Shown here: positions 4,329-11,088 of the stretch, piece after piece | Numbering within the stretch: the first letter of the stretch is position 1 | Layout: the number at the start of each line of letters is the position of its first letter | Translations under genes and position numbers: made by a program | Source: Riemerella columbina | GTDB lineage: Bacteria; Bacteroidota; Bacteroidia; Flavobacteriales; Weeksellaceae | Assembly: GCF_030517065.1 (NCBI RefSeq) | Contig: NZ_CP103950.1 | Span: forward strand, 310,001-374,000 | Reading direction: 5' to 3' | Length of the DNA: 64,000 bases | Notes under the pieces: generated by a model | The model's input: the letters and a program-made list of their open reading frames with translations, nothing else | What the model was told of the DNA's origin: nothing | Database searches by the model: none

Positions 4329-4781
4329 ATAAAAATTAGGTCAAAATGGCAGAATAAAATAAATTGTAAAGAAAAAAATACAACGACTTATTTTGTCGGG
4401 GTCAGGGTTTATTTTTGCAAAGACTAATAAGGATTAAAAAAATACAGCCTGCGCTATGGGTTATTTGTGGTTTTTATATTATCTTTGTGAAAATTAAAAT
4501 TTAATGAAGATATAAGACAATAAAAGTAACATATAGAGCATAAAATGCAGACCATTATTTCATTTGGTTAAATCTGGTAAATTCAACTAAGAGATGAAGA
4601 GTAATGGGCGAAAGCATGGTTGCTCCCTTTTCCAAGGGACGCAGGCTGTTTTTTCCTATTTTCATCTCAGGCTTTACCAGAGCCCAACCGAATAATATGG
4701 ACAAAAGCAAGTGCTGTGTCCTTTTTTTTGTAGATGTTTGAGAATCAAAAACAAATATTAACAAATAAAAAAAATAAAACT
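4329..4781. other. Long intergenic stretch before the GTPase island; possible small RNA or leader
   Basis: Together with the 4244-4328 miaB leader this is about 540 bases without a convincing gene. It contains a plus-strand TATCTTTG at 4480-4487, then about 290 bases of leader before the first ORF. Within that are a small hairpin with TCCCTT/AAGGGA arms (4624-4639) followed by a T run at 4649-4655, and another T run near 4721-4732. Short ATG frames (for example 33 codons near 4594) end early and have no recognisable product. It could be a long 5' untranslated region, a small RNA, or debris from insertion of the island; I cannot tell which. Confidence 0.35.
4480..4487 (+). promoter_or_regulatory. 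Candidate -7 element for the GTPase island or a leader RNA
   Basis: TATCTTTG matches TAnnTTTG exactly. A TTTG lies upstream at 4464-4467, but the spacing (12 bases) is shorter than usual, so support is only moderate. The first downstream start codon is almost 300 bases away. Confidence 0.4.
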
Positions 4782-4994
4782 ATGTCCACACATTTATGGC
4801 GGGTTACCGCAAAGAGAAATATGAACCAAGTGGTTAAGGGAATGTCCGTAGAGGTGATCGTTAGAAACACCAGTAGAAAACCCAATCAAAAAGAGGTGAT
4901 TGCCGCTTTTGATGCCAAATATGGCGCTGGCATCGCGTATAATGGTATGCCCGTGAGCTCCACAATATATTTTGAAATGGTTGAAGTGAAATGA
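4782..4994 (+). CDS. Small conserved-looking protein upstream of two GTPases
   Basis: 70 residues from the ATG at 4782 (MSTHLWRVTAKRN). An in-frame ATG at 4734 would add 16 Lys/Asn-rich residues and is less likely. The sequence is compact and basic at the N-terminus, with a strand-like pattern (GMSVEVIVRNTS... then a C-terminal IYFEMVEVK). It resembles small Bacteroidota proteins of unknown function (my recollection is a DUF6140-like family; unverified). It is 25 bases upstream of the first GTPase gene on the same strand, so they probably form one transcript. No membrane segment or known toxin/antitoxin motif is visible. It may be a partner or regulator of the GTPases. Confidence 0.6.
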   Translation: MSTHLWRVTAKRNMNQVVKGMSVEVIVRNTSRKPNQKEVIAAFDAKYGAGIAYNGMPVSSTIYFEMVEVK

Positions 4995-5019: not shown

Positions 5020-6141
5020 ATGAACATTAATACCAATGAAAAAGAATTAAGCAAACAATTTCAAAGAGAATTTGAAGAGCTTAAAAAAAACATTAAAAGC
5101 CCTAATGTTTTAGTTTTAGGGCAAACAGGTGTAGGAAAAAGTAGCCTTATTAACACCATTTTTGGAAAAGATCTGGCAGCTATATCGCATACAAAACCAA
5201 AAACCAGAGGTTTTTACAGATACTCTTCAGATAAAGAACCAGTTAATATTATTGATAGTGAGGGCTATGAATTAGAAAAAACTTCTAATTTTGAAACGGC
5301 CTTAAACAAGTATATTGATGAAAATTTTTCTAATATAGAAGATCAAATTCATATTGCGTGGTATTGCATCAGCCTTGCCAACGGAAGAATTCTCCCGTTT
5401 GATATTGAGAATATTAAATTTTTAATAGAAAACAAAAAAATACCTACCGCTGTTGTGTTTACACAATGTGATAATGATGACGAAGAAGGGAGTGATGCCA
5501 AAGCCCTAAAACAAGTTGTAAAACAACATTTTCCAAATCTTAGATGCTTTGAGGTAAGCAATGATCCAGAATTAAACAAGAAATTAGAATTAGACCAGTT
5601 AATAGAATGGTCTGAAGATAATATAAGCGATGAAAATGTAAAATTAGGCTTTATCGTTGCTCAAAAAGCCAACCTAAAACTTAAAAGAAAAAAAGCCGAT
5701 AATGCAATTAAATTAGCGGCAGCTGCTGCCATAGCCGTAGCCGCTTCTCCGATACCAATCTCTGATGCTCCTTTGCTTTTAGGAGTGCAAACCACTATGG
5801 CAATGCGGATTTTTAGTATCTATGGGCTTAATTATGGAATTTCTGATGTGGTGAAAAATGTAATAGGAAACCAAGTGGTCTCTATGATAGGGAAAACTTT
5901 AGCGGGGAATTTACTCAAATTGATTCCATTAGTAGGAAGTATTGCAGGAGCTTTGATAAATGCGACGGTAGCAAGTACCATTACTTATTCTATAGGGTAT
6001 GCCTTGATTAAAATTTCTGAGAAAATTGTCAATGAACAATTAGAAGGTACTTTCAATGAAAGCGCAGTTAAAGAGCTATTGACCAACGGAACTTTTGAAT
6101 CATTAATAAAATCATATAATGACAGCAAGAAAAAATCTTAA
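5020..6141 (+). CDS. Era/septin-like GTPase with C-terminal DUF697-like membrane-associating region
   Basis: 373 residues. The G domain has G1 GQTGVGKSS (34-42), a G3-like DSEG (79-82) and a G4-like TQCD (148-151). After it come two hydrophobic segments, about 229-262 (an Ala-rich run into ASPIPISDAPLLLGVQ) and about 298-328 (LLKLIPLVGSIAGALINATVAS). Their spacing and the Pro/Asp pattern resemble DUF697 (YcjF-type), which associates with membranes. Family members of this architecture are poorly characterised. The 3' end overlaps the next GTPase gene by 23 bases, implying translational coupling. Base composition is more AT-rich than flanking genes, which fits horizontal acquisition. Not recognised as a named housekeeping GTPase (Era, Der, EngB). 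Confidence 0.85.
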   Translation: MNINTNEKELSKQFQREFEELKKNIKSPNVLVLGQTGVGKSSLINTIFGKDLAAISHTKPKTRGFYRYSSDKEPVNIIDSEGYELEKTSNFETALNKYIDENFSNIEDQIHIAWYCISLANGRILPFDIENIKFLIENKKIPTAVVFTQCDNDDEEGSDAKALKQVVKQHFPNLRCFEVSNDPELNKKLELDQLIEWSEDNISDENVKLGFIVAQKANLKLKRKKADNAIKLAAAAAIAVAASPIPISDAPLLLGVQTTMAMRIFSIYGLNYGISDVVKNVIGNQVVSMIGKTLAGNLLKLIPLVGSIAGALINATVASTITYSIGYALIKISEKIVNEQLEGTFNESAVKELLTNGTFESLIKSYNDSKKKS

Positions 6142-7573
6142 TATCGTAGTTGCAGGAAAATCGGGAGTTGGGAAAAGCTCCCTCCTTAACTATCTGGTGG
6201 GTAAAAAAGTTTTTGAAACAGGGATAGGAATGCCTGTTACCCAAGAATATTTTGATATTCACACTTATAGAGATCCTAAAACCAAAATACGCTATCACCT
6301 CTATGATACCAAAGGTATAGAACCCGATACCACCGAAGAGTTTGAAAAAGCCTTTGAAGAAAAAATAAAAGAAACTCAAGAGTTTGATGATTTTTTTGAG
6401 CACTTGCATACGCTGTATTACTGTATTGCAGCGAGTAGCAAACGCTTAGAGACTTTTGAGATAGATTTTATAAATAAGATGAAGAAAATCATCAATGTGG
6501 TGATTATTCTAACCAAAAGTGATCTGGTGGGAGATAAAGAATTAGAAGAGTTTTGCCATGTCCTTAATACCGAGTTAAAAGCCTCTGTTGATGACAAAAA
6601 TGCAGATATAAAAATTATAAAAGTTTGCAATGAAGAGAAAAAAACGCGTAAAGGATCTTCTAAGCCATTTGGACGAGAAGAGGTGTTGAATTATAGCTTT
6701 GTAGGTCTTTGGGAAACTTTTTGCAATATCTATCCAGAAAAAGATATGTATGCAATAATATTGAACCTCCCTAAAATTCCGATAAAATTAGAAAGGAGGG
6801 AAATAGCAGATTATTGTATTTCAAATTATAGAAAATATTATGAGAAAAAATGGGATTTTTTAAGTAGTGAATATCATGAAGAAAAATCGGTTGACTATTA
6901 CCAGTTGTTTGATCTTCCTCATTTACCAGATTTAGGAGTAGAAAAATTAAAACAAAACGAAAGAAATAGTCTACAGGCCATATTAAATGGGCATATTGAA
7001 TTATTAACCTCAGAACAGTATAATGAAAGAATAAAAGATAATGCGGAGCAATATTTTGCAAAGCTTATTACAACAGCACAAAGTTTAATAGACTTTTATG
7101 CCAATATTATGGGGGAATCTTTTAAACACCAATTGGTAATTAAAGAGACCAAAAAAGGGATAAATCAAATAATCGAATTTCTAACGCAGGAATTCCCCTC
7201 TACACATGTGGAATATCTAACTAAAGTAAGTGATTCTCTTGAGAAAGTTAAAGAGGAAGGAGATGGCTTTTTTGGACTTTCAGGATCTGATAAAGATAAG
7301 ATAAGAGATTGGTATAAAGATGCGGTTCGATCATCAGATGAAGCTTTCGTAAAATTAATAAAATTAATTGAAAAGTATGAGAATACCTGCATAACAGAAC
7401 TCAAACAATTTGGAACTCTTTTATTGCAGGTTAATTTAGATGAGGCTTTTCATGAACCTAAAACGGGGCTCAATCTTTCTGCAGAAGAGAAATACGCTAA
7501 GAAAGTCAGGAATGCTTTAGAAGACAACTATATAATAGAGGAGGTTTTTAGGGCAAAAGAGAATAACTTATGA
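6119..7573 (+). CDS. Second GTPase with a long helical C-terminal region
   Basis: 484 residues. G1 is GKSGVGKS (13-20), G3 DTKG (63-66), G4 TKSD (132-135). The G domain ends near residue 200. The remaining ~280 residues are Lys/Glu/Leu-rich and predicted mostly helical (for example about 380-450), without transmembrane segments, so this half is soluble while its partner has hydrophobic segments. The start ATG lies inside the 3' end of the first GTPase gene. A pair of unlike GTPases, one membrane-associating and one soluble, recalls paired dynamin-like or immune-type GTPases, but I see no diagnostic dynamin motif. The AT-rich composition matches its partner, not miaB or the RNA-ligase operon. 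Confidence 0.85.
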   Translation: MTARKNLNIVVAGKSGVGKSSLLNYLVGKKVFETGIGMPVTQEYFDIHTYRDPKTKIRYHLYDTKGIEPDTTEEFEKAFEEKIKETQEFDDFFEHLHTLYYCIAASSKRLETFEIDFINKMKKIINVVIILTKSDLVGDKELEEFCHVLNTELKASVDDKNADIKIIKVCNEEKKTRKGSSKPFGREEVLNYSFVGLWETFCNIYPEKDMYAIILNLPKIPIKLERREIADYCISNYRKYYEKKWDFLSSEYHEEKSVDYYQLFDLPHLPDLGVEKLKQNERNSLQAILNGHIELLTSEQYNERIKDNAEQYFAKLITTAQSLIDFYANIMGESFKHQLVIKETKKGINQIIEFLTQEFPSTHVEYLTKVSDSLEKVKEEGDGFFGLSGSDKDKIRDWYKDAVRSSDEAFVKLIKLIEKYENTCITELKQFGTLLLQVNLDEAFHEPKTGLNLSAEEKYAKKVRNALEDNYIIEEVFRAKENNL

Positions 7574-7678: not shown

Positions 7679-8281
7679 CTACACCCGCCCCATATACAGC
7701 CGGAGTTCTTGGTATGCTGCTTGGGCATTTTTCGTGAGGCTACTCGGGTGTGGCACCACAAAAAGAGCATAATCACGGTCGTAAGACAGGGTGTGGATCC
7801 CGTTGTTATTATGGTAGGCATCTTTAGGAAAATGGTTCCAGAGGCGGTGTCCCCAGAAGATGATGAGGTTGGGGGAGAGCTGTTTTAAAACCGTTTTAAA
7901 AGCCGCTTCGCTTTGGGTAAAATCGGCGGCGGTAGGAGCTTGGCGAGGACCTCCCATAGGCGTTTGCACAAAGTTATAAAAAGCCAAAGTCTCCCACAGC
8001 GCGCCCAGATCTGCGTTAGACAGCTTTTCACCTTTCAGTAAGTTAGAAAATTTAGTAAAAGTGCGCATCCATGCGGCGCCAGCACCTTGCCCTCGTTTGT
8101 AGGCTAAAAACTCGTGCACCACTTTTTGAGTAACGCCAGCCAAGGCAGCGAGGTTACCGCTATTAAAAGTCTGCCAATCCTCAGTGCCAAAATAATGGCT
8201 CTCGCCCAAGACTAAAATTTTAAACGCTTGTTGATGAAATTGCGAGCCCACATAAGGCTCAAAAGTAACAGGGAAATCCAT
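7679..8281 (-). CDS. Uracil-DNA glycosylase superfamily-like protein
   Basis: 200 residues from the ATG at 8281 (MDFPVTFEPYVG). An upstream ATG at 8362 would add 27 residues, but a TATTTTTG -7 element (8305-8312, minus) lies inside that extension, so I prefer the shorter start. Features of the UDG-like fold are visible: KILVLGESHYFG as the first strand with the catalytic-loop position, NFVQTPMGGPR, the strand LIIFWGHRLWNHF, and VVPHPSS near the C-terminus, which resembles the minor-groove/catalytic His-Pro-Ser motif. It may excise damaged bases, but the family also includes members of unknown activity. It is divergent from the RNA-repair operon, with about 130 bases between starts. Confidence 0.6.
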   Translation of the reverse strand: MDFPVTFEPYVGSQFHQQAFKILVLGESHYFGTEDWQTFNSGNLAALAGVTQKVVHEFLAYKRGQGAGAAWMRTFTKFSNLLKGEKLSNADLGALWETLAFYNFVQTPMGGPRQAPTAADFTQSEAAFKTVLKQLSPNLIIFWGHRLWNHFPKDAYHNNNGIHTLSYDRDYALFVVPHPSSLTKNAQAAYQELRLYMGRV

Positions 8282-8304
8282 ATCGTATCCAATTATAATT
8301 TCCA

Positions 8305-8312
8305 CAAAAATA
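8305..8312 (-). promoter_or_regulatory. -7 element that fixes the start of the UDG-like gene
   Basis: The minus strand reads TATTTTTG, a full TAnnTTTG match, 24 bases upstream of the ATG at 8281. It falls inside the alternative longer reading frame. Confidence 0.5.
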
Positions 8313-8382
8313 AGACTTGCTTCGGACAAAAGGTGTCGTTGTAAAAATTTTTTAACGGACATAGTTTGTCGCTATACCACCC

Positions 8383-8390
8383 TAATTTTG
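8383..8390 (+). promoter_or_regulatory. -7 element of the RNA-repair operon
   Basis: TAATTTTG matches TAnnTTTG and lies 25 bases upstream of the methyltransferase ATG at 8416. A TTTG at 8365-8368 is a possible -33 element, with slightly short spacing. Confidence 0.5.
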
Positions 8391-8415
8391 TCCCAGAATT
8401 TAAAAAACAAAAATT

Positions 8416-8904
8416 ATGTTAGATTATCCTAATGCTTACCCTTACCCTAAAACAAAAGGTTTCTGGGGAATTGGAATTGAGAATGTACGCTCCACAAAAA
8501 ACATCGGTACCATATGGCGTTCCGCCTACATTATGGGCGCCAACTTCATCTTCGTTATCGGCGAAAGTTACAAGCGGATGCGTACGGACACCATTGCGGC
8601 GTATCGGCAGTTGCCCCTTTTCCATTACGATACTTTGGAGGAATTCTACCGCGCTATGCCGATGGAGAGCCAGCTGATTGGCGTAGAATTAGACGAACGA
8701 AGCGTTCCAATTGTAGATTTTAAACATCCTAAGCGCGCGCTTTACCTTATGGGCTCCGAGTTTTACGGCTTATCCGATGAGGCTAAAGGTTACTGCGATC
8801 ATATTGTTCAGCTCCCAGGGACGCTCTCGCTCAATGTTTCCGTGGCGGCCTCTTTGGTGATGTATGACAGGCTGATGAAAGCCTTGCCAGAGTATCAAAA
8901 ATAA
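8416..8904 (+). CDS. TrmH/SPOUT-family RNA 2'-O-methyltransferase (TrmL-sized)
   Basis: 162 residues, about the length of TrmL, i.e. a bare SPOUT domain without an RNA-binding extension. Motif 1 is NVRSTKNIGTIWRSA (23-37), motif 2 ALYLMGSEFYGLSDE (about 108-122), and the knot motif 3 LSLNVSVAASLVMYD (137-151). The family methylates ribose 2'-OH with S-adenosylmethionine; TrmL acts on the wobble base of tRNA-Leu, other members on different sites. The stop TAA (8902-8904) is immediately followed by the ATG of the RNA ligase gene at 8905, so the two are translationally linked. That linkage suggests an RNA-repair context, but the substrate is unknown. Confidence 0.88.
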   Translation: MLDYPNAYPYPKTKGFWGIGIENVRSTKNIGTIWRSAYIMGANFIFVIGESYKRMRTDTIAAYRQLPLFHYDTLEEFYRAMPMESQLIGVELDERSVPIVDFKHPKRALYLMGSEFYGLSDEAKGYCDHIVQLPGTLSLNVSVAASLVMYDRLMKALPEYQK

Positions 8905-9648
8905 ATGTTTCATTCAAAAAAATCTCAGATGAAACCCCTAAATATCAAAAATTACGATGCTATTGGGCACTTCCCCAACTCTAAGTTAGGCGAGGGCGAC
9001 CACCACATTAGCGCAGGGCACATTCGGATTTTTACCCAGCAGAAAAGAGACCACTGGGACACCATTTGGGTTCACGAAAAGTACGACGGCTCTAATGTGG
9101 GCATCATCAAACATCAAAACCAAATTTTGGCACTCACACGCTCGGGGTTGTTGGCAAAAAATAGCCGCTTTCTACAGCACAGGCTCTTTGCCCATTGGGT
9201 TGCACAGCGCGAGCGTCTCTTCGCCGAAATTTTAGCCGAAGGCGAGCGTTTGGTGGGCGAGTGGATGGCGCAGGCACACGGCATACGCTATAAAATCAGC
9301 ACGGAGCCTATCGTTTTTTTTGATTATTTTAGCCCTGAAAATGAGCGCTATCTACAGCAAGATTTCCTCGCCAAAGTGAAGCCCCACGGTCTCAACACCC
9401 CACGGAAACTCCACGAAGGCGATGCCATTCCGCCAGAAGATTTAATCCCCATTCTGAACCAAAAAACACCAGAAATAGAGAGCGTAGAAATGCCCGAAGG
9501 GATGGTGTACAGGGTGGAGCGGTGCGGCAAAGTGGATACTCTCGCCAAGTGGGTACGCTCGGATTTTAAGAATGGACAATACATTAAAAATGTAGCGGAA
9601 GCCGATTTCGTTTGGAATGTGCCTCCCGCTACGCTGACTGAACGATGA
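8905..9648 (+). CDS. RNA ligase family protein (Rnl2-like nucleotidyltransferase)
   Basis: 247 residues (a second ATG at 8929 would give 239). The covalent nucleotidyltransferase motifs are all visible: motif I KYDG with the predicted adenylated Lys59, TRSG as the Ia region, GEWMA and FFDYF for III/IIIa, EGMVYRV for IV and LAKWVR for V. The enzyme should seal RNA 3'-OH/5'-phosphate ends with ATP. It lacks a long C-terminal domain, so partner proteins may supply specificity. It starts directly after the methyltransferase stop and overlaps the next gene by four bases (ATGA, 9645-9648). This is a tight operon whose products likely process, seal and modify broken RNA. Confidence 0.85.
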   Translation: MFHSKKSQMKPLNIKNYDAIGHFPNSKLGEGDHHISAGHIRIFTQQKRDHWDTIWVHEKYDGSNVGIIKHQNQILALTRSGLLAKNSRFLQHRLFAHWVAQRERLFAEILAEGERLVGEWMAQAHGIRYKISTEPIVFFDYFSPENERYLQQDFLAKVKPHGLNTPRKLHEGDAIPPEDLIPILNQKTPEIESVEMPEGMVYRVERCGKVDTLAKWVRSDFKNGQYIKNVAEADFVWNVPPATLTER

Positions 9649-9983
9649 AAAAGAAATTATTTTTAGACGATATCCGTACGGTGGAGATGGTGTATCCGCC
9701 TACCGAGGTGGCAAATTTCCATATAGTGCGCTCCTACAAGGCGTTTGTGGCATATATCCAAAACAATGGATTGCCAGATTTCATCAGTTTTGATAATGAT
9801 TTGGGCACCGATGAGGCAGGCAATATAGCGCCAGATGGTTTGGCGGCGGCTAAGTGGCTCGTGTACGAATCAGGCTGTGATTTAAGCCAACTTCAGTTTT
9901 TTGTTCACTCTGCCAATCCCGTGGCGGCGGAACAGATTAGAGGTTTGCTGAACAATTATATCGCATTTTTAAATCAAAAATAA
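9645..9983 (+). CDS. Cyclic-phosphate-processing receiver-domain protein (cREC)
   Basis: 112 residues. It has a receiver-like fold with LFLDDIR at the N-terminus, SFDNDLG in the middle and FFVHSANPVAAEQI near the end. These are the hallmarks I recall for the cREC family described by comparative genomics of RNA-repair systems, where it is predicted to open 2',3'-cyclic phosphates left by ribonucleases. The acidic D-D and H-S residues would form the active site; this is family knowledge, not shown here. It overlaps the RNA ligase stop (ATGA), so ligase and end-processing protein are probably made in fixed proportion. No phosphotransfer partner kinase is nearby, which argues against a classical response regulator. 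Confidence 0.75.
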   Translation: MKKKLFLDDIRTVEMVYPPTEVANFHIVRSYKAFVAYIQNNGLPDFISFDNDLGTDEAGNIAPDGLAAAKWLVYESGCDLSQLQFFVHSANPVAAEQIRGLLNNYIAFLNQK

Positions 9984-10007
9984 AGCGGATATTTCGGTAG
10001 ATTAAAA

Positions 10008-10148
10008 ATGAAGAATCCGATTGAGTCAGTGCCGCTATGGTGCAGTGAGATGAGGTTTGGACAAGATAATTCTACCAATGATGCAAAAGAAAATGCGAGG
10101 GTGCATAGTCCAAATCAAATGATATTAAATAAAAAAATAAACCAATAA
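10008..10148 (+). CDS. Possible 46-residue peptide between the repair operon and the WYL gene
   Basis: A short frame from ATG 10008 to TAA 10146-10148 encodes a polar peptide (MKNPIESVPLWCSEMRFGQ...) and occupies most of the gap between the cREC and WYL genes. There is no clear ribosome binding site. Its end is 10 bases before the WYL ATG, a spacing that would suit a leader peptide or a small co-expressed protein. I do not recognise it; it may be chance or the remnant of a larger gene. Confidence 0.25.
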   Translation: MKNPIESVPLWCSEMRFGQDNSTNDAKENARVHSPNQMILNKKINQ

Positions 10149-10158
10149 TTATAAAAAA

Positions 10159-11088
10159 ATGGCAGTTTTAGAACATATTTTAAGAATTCAATATATAGGA
10201 GAATTTTTGCGAGAGCGTGGAGATAGAGGCGCTTCGTTTGAGGAAATCCAAGACCATTTAGATGAAAAATTTACCCAGCGAGATATGCTGTTGAGTTATG
10301 ATAAAAGGACTTTTCAACGAGATAAAATCCTGATTCAGGAGGCTTTAGGGTTAGAAATTAGCTACAGCCGAAAGCGAAAAGTCCACTTTATCAGCCGTGA
10401 AGAGTTAGACCTCCATCAGGAAAAAGCCCTTGAAAGCGCCATCTTGCTGGATGCCTACCGCAGCTCCAAGAAAAATGCGGAGGTGATGTTTTTTGAAAAT
10501 AGAACCTCGCTGGCTTTAAACGAAAATTTGACGGGCATTCTCCACGCCATTATCAACAAACGGCTCCTCAGCTTTCAGCACCAGAGTTTGTGGGATAGTG
10601 AGGCGAAAGCCAGCCGAAAAACCGTGCAACCCTATGCGCTCAAGGAGTTTCGACACCGTTGGTATCTTTTAGCCAAGCCTTTCAAAGCGGGTGGTGAGCC
10701 TTCGGAAATGAGAGCCTACGGCTTAGATCGGATTAGAGATCTGGAATTTTCAAACTCCAAATTTACCCCAGAAAAAATAGACTTCGCCCACCTTTACGAA
10801 TATTCTTTTGGCATTGTGGCACCGAATGGAGCGCAGCCAGAAGATATCGTGCTGGCTTTTGATCGACAACAGGGCAGTTATGTCAAAAAATTACCGCTCC
10901 ACGCCACGCAGAAAGTAGTCACCGAAACGCCAACGGAAACCATCATCACCCTGAAGTTGGTGCCCACTTATGATTTTGAGCGTGAACTCCTCTCTATGGG
11001 CAGTCGCGTGAAAATCCTCGCCCCAGAATCCCTAAAAACCAGAATGAGAAAGGAAATAGAAAAAATGCTGGAAAACTATTCGGCGTGA
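10159..11088 (+). CDS. WYL-domain transcriptional regulator
   Basis: 309 residues. The N-terminal ~75 residues form a winged-helix domain (SFEEIQDHLDEKF... DKRTFQRDKILIQEALGLEI). The WYL domain follows, with the signature RHRWYLLAKPF at about 165-175, and the C-terminal WCX-like extension reaches residue 309. WYL domains are thought to sense nucleotides or nucleic-acid fragments and often control defence or DNA/RNA-repair genes. Its position 175 bases downstream of the repair operon makes it the likely regulator, possibly responding to broken RNA; that is inference. Its last 18 bases lie inside the first copy of a 19-bp direct repeat (11072-11090). Confidence 0.88.
   Translation: MAVLEHILRIQYIGEFLRERGDRGASFEEIQDHLDEKFTQRDMLLSYDKRTFQRDKILIQEALGLEISYSRKRKVHFISREELDLHQEKALESAILLDAYRSSKKNAEVMFFENRTSLALNENLTGILHAIINKRLLSFQHQSLWDSEAKASRKTVQPYALKEFRHRWYLLAKPFKAGGEPSEMRAYGLDRIRDLEFSNSKFTPEKIDFAHLYEYSFGIVAPNGAQPEDIVLAFDRQQGSYVKKLPLHATQKVVTETPTETIITLKLVPTYDFERELLSMGSRVKILAPESLKTRMRKEIEKMLENYSA

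Follow-up and report, generated by a model that had tools for sequence, protein, structure and literature searches.

The window (the whole stretch of DNA that was analysed, 64 kb in length and part of a 2.04-Mb single-contig genome) carries an island in which genes for a SPOUT methyltransferase, an RNA ligase, a cREC protein and a WYL regulator follow one another on the forward strand, accompanied by a divergent gene, a conserved RNA, two GTPase genes and three predicted operators:

4382..4420 (+): predicted WYL operator/promoter ahead of the conserved RNA and the GTPase genes (matrix scan)
4530..4735 (+): conserved non-coding RNA, rod-shaped and including a terminator-like hairpin (five-species alignment and fold)
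5020..7573 (+): two dynamin/septin-like GTPase genes of the same island (Pfam)
7679..8281 (-): UDG-superfamily-like protein (weak PF03167, E 7e-5; listed ORF to 8362)
8302..8340 (-): predicted WYL operator/promoter for the UDG-like gene, which is divergent (matrix scan)
8355..8393 (+): predicted WYL operator over the SPOUT-ligase-cREC promoter (GGAC-N7-GTCGC, -33 TTTG, -7 TAATTTTG)
8416..8904 (+): SPOUT (SpoU/TrmH class) 2'-O-methyltransferase of a phage-type clade (PF00588, E 9.6e-22; 162 aa)
8905..9648 (+): ATP-dependent RNA ligase (PF09414, E 1.6e-19; 247 aa, a single nucleotidyltransferase domain)
9645..9983 (+): cREC, receiver fold, predicted 2',3'-cyclic-phosphate opener (PF20274, E 1.4e-22)
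10159..11088 (+): wHTH-WYL-WCX regulator, DriD-like (PF13280 and PF25583)

Coordinates and Pfam matches confirm the four genes, from the methyltransferase to the regulator, at the positions given by a first-pass annotation of this DNA; the methyltransferase that it had described as "fused", however, is encoded by a separate gene adjacent to that of the ligase. The ligase ATG comes immediately after the SPOUT stop codon (zero spacing), the ligase and cREC genes overlap by ATGA, and a gap of 175 bp separates cREC from the WYL gene. The UDG-like gene probably starts at 8281, and not at 8362, because its promoter lies inside the longer ORF; its orthologues in a sister species (G034) and in G052, where the same gene occupies the same position, score just above the Pfam cut-off.

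The nucleotidyltransferase motifs that had been named for the ligase are all there (EKYDG, VFFDYF, EGMVYR and LAKWV, together with the catalytic lysine) and are kept across 18 relatives, i.e., conserved across 19 sequences, as expected of a PF09414 RNA ligase. Its AlphaFold model (pLDDT 94) matches archaeal, trypanosome, T4 Rnl2, Naegleria and fungal tRNA ligases ahead of nearly all DNA ligases (an Aquifex entry labelled "putative DNA ligase" is found at rank 10), with TM-scores near 0.5, and both sequence and model suggest that the substrate would be RNA and not DNA. The ligase is present in 2 of 150 genomes of the family, 2 of 395 of the class and 1 of 398 of the order, the window genome being included in each count. 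Its relatives, to some of which (phage and prophage ligases) the window protein is 49-59% identical, are mostly lone genes of phages and prophages of Bacteroidota, Flavobacterium phages 2A and 6H among them, and the source of the gene was probably a flavobacterial phage.

In the cREC protein, a receiver-type domain (PF20274), the acidic residues D8, D9, D50 and D52 are conserved. Stand-alone cREC genes, 62-74% identical in product to that of the window and unaccompanied by a ligase, occur in three genus mates, in two of them just upstream of rpoB, and the 349-bp gap upstream of rpoB in the window genome holds no cREC, so that either relocation from rpoB or loss followed by regain could account for the window copy. 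The opening of cyclic phosphates by cREC is a published prediction (PMC7824862, PMC9503650), and operonic links between cREC and RNA ligases have likewise been published (PMC7824862), which, along with the RNA-ligase-like fold, makes the earlier view of the two proteins as an RNA-end repair pair plausible. As in the cREC-RNA ligase operons described there from jumbo phages and from bacteria, the window has a cREC beside an ATP-dependent RNA ligase; it adds a SPOUT gene and a damage-type operator, and none of the PNK, 2H, RlaP or Nudix genes was found as a neighbour of its ligase-cREC pair. The absence of a visible polynucleotide kinase, as remarked upon earlier, holds for the cassette in a Pfam scan of neighbouring genes, and, with no 5' kinase in the cassette, the ligase would need 5'-phosphate ends or the help of another enzyme.

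The methyltransferase has the three SPOUT motifs, including the catalytic Arg and the C-terminal Asn motif (residues N29, R35, E115 and N140 are intact), while deviating at residues that are near-invariant in its clade (K25R, R51S, Q55M, D116F, G145A). The wobble-nucleotide argument, for which it had been likened to TrmL-type enzymes, fails on both profile score and fold comparison: TrmL (TIGR00185) reaches 17.7 bits against a cut-off of 190.6 (E 0.0025), RlmB (E 4.8e-13) and TrmH (E 1.9e-10) score better, all three of these equivalog profiles stay far under their family cut-offs, and the nearest folds are AviRb, TARBP1, TrmH and RlmB. As a lone query, the protein found no match in viral contigs; the alignment used as a query retrieved 147 relatives (identity of the window protein to viral homologues up to 59%), and this small SPOUT 2'-O-methyltransferase clade is thus widespread in phages (viral loci L084-L163). 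Two phage members that were checked had no PHROG match. The gene is present in 18 of the 396 genomes of the phylum sample, the 17 besides the window belonging mostly to one genus of the order, and in the tree, in which many forks are unresolved, the window protein forms a long branch next to one of viral origin.

The first-pass annotation, in proposing one system of methyltransferase and ligase, had itself named widespread SPOUT relatives without the ligase as evidence that would tell against it; this is largely what the survey of co-occurrence shows, and a dedicated, conserved system is left unsupported. Close SPOUT relatives are common as phage and Flavobacterium-type genes that lack a ligase: none was seen beside the viral SPOUT genes (0 of 80 loci, kept from the 147, with DNA fetched up to 10 kb each side) or beside those of the 17 other Bacteroidota genomes, where the neighbours are unrelated, and the ligase cassette of the sister species has no SPOUT. 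Conversely, among 37 ligase loci, which include duplicates, 1 has a SPOUT gene, this one being, apart from the window, an Aequorivita prophage (L039 6016-9818) in which a ligase and a SPOUT homologue lie 2.6 kb apart. On these counts, a conserved SPOUT-ligase linkage is rejected, and, because the Aequorivita SPOUT falls in another viral clade than that of the window, the pairing may have arisen twice. Given the separate distributions of SPOUT, ligase and cREC, the trio is therefore to be seen as an assembly of separately travelling genes.

Where they assembled seems to be a variable slot. Sequence identity between G052 and G034 is 95.5% on each flank of a 1.3-kb insert, which in G034 carries the ligase and a PLD-family gene, whereas the slot of G052 is empty; in the window, SPOUT-ligase-cREC fills the equivalent slot, between the UDG-like gene and the WYL gene. 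The cassettes of this slot are thus exchanged, and the best reading is that the partners of the ligase are interchangeable, a PLD-family protein in the sister species and SPOUT plus cREC in the window. WYL orthologues of other genera have a PD-(D/E)XK nuclease, PLD, a dynamin-like GTPase and, nearby, a type I restriction gene as neighbours. PADLOC gave no assignment of the cassette; its matches were weak and confined to the WYL protein and a GTPase.

The new result is regulation, i.e., the predicted operator. Comparison of empty and filled slots revealed an inverted repeat that recurs, GAC-N7-GTC; it overlaps TTTG, with TAnnTTTG coming after it, and the window has three sites of the type ACGAC-N7-GTCGT over a -33 box, those of the SPOUT operon, the UDG-like gene and the conserved RNA. 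The exact pattern matches three times in the whole 2.04-Mb genome, always within the island (reversed control 0), but, because that pattern was written from the window sites, the independent test is a 39-bp matrix derived wholly from promoters outside the window genome, eight of WYL genes and one of the G034 ligase. This matrix ranks the three sites 1-3 in the 64 kb (28.7, 20.5 and 17.4), the third being the weakest as 17.4 is close to the 16.4 of the fourth-ranked site; the best of 30 simulated windows reached 14.9, and 1.5 Mb of unrelated loci contained one match of at least 17. A matrix made from other genera only puts the same three sites at ranks 1-3 (17.7, 15.7 and 13.8, the next being 7.6). 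A site at genome position 1554327 (one mismatch) was dropped for its low matrix score.

Outside the window genome, WYL genes of 9 genomes have the operator immediately ahead of them, as do the ligase of G034 and the UDG-like genes of G034 and G052, and the conserved RNA has it upstream in G034, G052, G066 and G077 (five genomes with that of the window). Sites on which the matrix had not been trained, those of cREC and of the UDG-like gene among them, include one 10-11 bp ahead of the stand-alone cREC gene in each of G001 and G066, one at the start of cREC in G077, one before a PD-(D/E)XK gene in G031 and one before recA in G010. The pattern search across the family gave 103 matches against 7 in the reversed control (sums of the table), and the genes behind it include recA (four genomes), rmuC, hsdM, cas6, one for an RNase_T/GIY-YIG protein, dynamin, patatin and many WYL genes. 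Among 59 related genomes, WYL orthologue and operator co-occur (17 of 20 against 5 of 39, p 7e-8, kinship uncorrected), but G001 and G066 have operator-bearing genes and no close WYL orthologue at 1e-40. The 175 bp before the window WYL gene contain no operator, and, with no operator of its own, its co-transcription with the operon is an assumption; recA of the window genome is not among the strong sites.

As to what might bind there, the window WYL protein matches nothing in the PDB but WYL proteins, 195-347 residues in length (over residues 131-301, at E 3e-8 to 1.5e-7), among them 7TZV and 9PFQ/9PFV/9PGA, which are named as DriD (PMC12340889), and it qualifies as a DriD-related WYL-WCX regulator. 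The published DriD consensus, ATACGAC-N7-GTCGTAT, is bound over the -35 element (PMC12340889), and the window operator, derived before that consensus was found, equals it, the predicted sites lying over the -35 region at a fixed distance to the -10 element. WYL control of the operon, as suggested earlier, is thus supported by the predicted operator and the DriD-like matches. DriD of Caulobacter crescentus is a WYL ssDNA-sensing damage activator (PMC12340889, PMC10693628) and, like PafBC, one of the ssDNA-sensing activators (PMC10693628, PMC11804915), so that by analogy the window protein may be an activator responding to ssDNA. Alike are the wHTH-WYL-WCX architecture, the ACGAC-N7-GTCGT site over the -35 region with its fixed -10 distance, and recA as a target in some genera; different are the Bacteroidota promoter elements (TTTG/TAnnTTTG) and a predicted regulon including RNA ligase, cREC, CRISPR and restriction genes, while the sequence match to DriD is confined to the WYL-WCX part and the window site is a predicted one.

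The best explanation, which we consider probable, with all evidence for it being computational, is that of an inducible RNA-repair cassette occupying the variable slot of a WYL-controlled damage/defence island and switched by a DriD-like damage sensor, with the SPOUT protein proposed to be a phage-type 2'-O-methyltransferase recruited into the ligase operon. The regulator, to judge from DriD, would sense single-stranded nucleic acid arising from DNA damage or phage attack, bind ACGAC-N7-GTCGT over the -33 box (the operator is computed, the activation presumed) and switch on the SPOUT-ligase-cREC operon, the divergent UDG-like gene, the conserved RNA and probably itself; going by what is known of the families, cREC would open the 2',3'-cyclic phosphates of cut RNA, and the ligase would seal 5'-phosphate to 3'-OH ends. 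The methyltransferase would most likely modify tRNA or rRNA, which we infer to be a separate protective function, independent of sealing.

Three other explanations are to be weighed against this one. That SPOUT, ligase and cREC are functionally independent (e.g., anti-phage or counter-RNase genes) and happen to share a hotspot and a promoter agrees with the separate distribution of each gene and with the variability of the slot, but seems unlikely when ligase and cREC each stand behind this rare operator on their own in different species, are ATGA-coupled in the window and are recurrently linked in the literature (PMC7824862). More doubtful still is the "repair then protect" reading of a tRNA system dedicated to that purpose, where SPOUT would 2'-O-methylate the ligase-sealed junction and so block its re-cleavage; the zero-spaced genes under one operator and the second pair in the Aequorivita prophage, albeit with a SPOUT of a different clade, would fit it, but the pairing is missing from the viral loci, the 17 Bacteroidota genomes and the sister cassette alike. 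Moreover, the protein is neither TrmL-type nor Hen1-type, the SPOUT and Hen1 folds being unrelated, and the operator match to a DNA-damage sensor suggests a gene set induced by damage or attack rather than a fixed machine of that sort. A DNA repair module, in which the UDG-like protein, the ligase and the damage operator would serve base excision or nick sealing, can be considered very improbable, for all that the UDG-like neighbour recurs in three species and recA and rmuC have the same operator, as the ligase groups with RNA ligases by sequence and fold (DNA ligases score lower), cREC and SPOUT indicate RNA, and the UDG-like assignment is weak.

Returning to the inducible cassette, its nearest counterparts differ in several ways. 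Pnkp1-Rnl-Hen1 (PMC4411300) also has a ligase gene adjoining a 2'-O-methyltransferase gene, whereas the window has SPOUT in place of Hen1, neither a Pnkp nor a Hen1 gene beside the ligase (Pfam scan of neighbour genes), and a linkage that is not conserved. The BrxR/CapW regulators of defence islands (PMC9122601) are WYL proteins with variable neighbours too, but BrxR is a repressor acting on 11-bp repeats and the window operator is DriD-type. The non-canonical LexA of Bacteroidetes (PMC8565304) similarly controls recA, UDG and splB-type genes, yet it does so as an S24 peptidase through GGA-N5-TCC or CTAA-N5-TTAG, from both of which the window operator differs, and the regulator here is WYL. 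Whether a wider DriD-type WYL regulon exists in the family of the window (Weeksellaceae-like flavobacteria), with recA, rmuC, CRISPR, restriction and ligase/cREC/SPOUT genes under a single ssDNA-sensing, LexA-independent switch for damage and defence together and RNA ligation being damage-induced, is about an even bet. If true, RNA repair would be linked to a WYL ssDNA sensor and the DriD operator extended from Caulobacter to Bacteroidota, a group whose damage control has so far been described via LexA-like repressors; inducible defence/repair cassettes would gain a searchable sequence signature, and the inducer of orphan RNA ligases and cREC proteins would become a directly testable question.

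Conservation of the RNA among species of the genus is about 81-87%, and its predicted fold is a long rod with the terminator-like hairpin. Against Rfam, it gave no family at gathering and one sub-threshold match; the 4476-4733 stretch reached no threshold for 6S or another known family, being 6S-like in shape only, and no tRNA/tmRNA integration site was found there. After the RNA, window positions 4782-4994 (+) encode a small protein weakly like DUF6140, a homologue of which in G032 (L289) is also behind an operator. Elsewhere in the family, recA genes of other genera (L213, L226, L227 and L286) lie behind a DriD-type operator, suggesting LexA-independent damage control, and in two genomes of genus g20 (L243-L262) several near-identical genes, whose large products look secreted and which may form a multi-copy family sharing this control, have the operator about 130-180 bp ahead of them.
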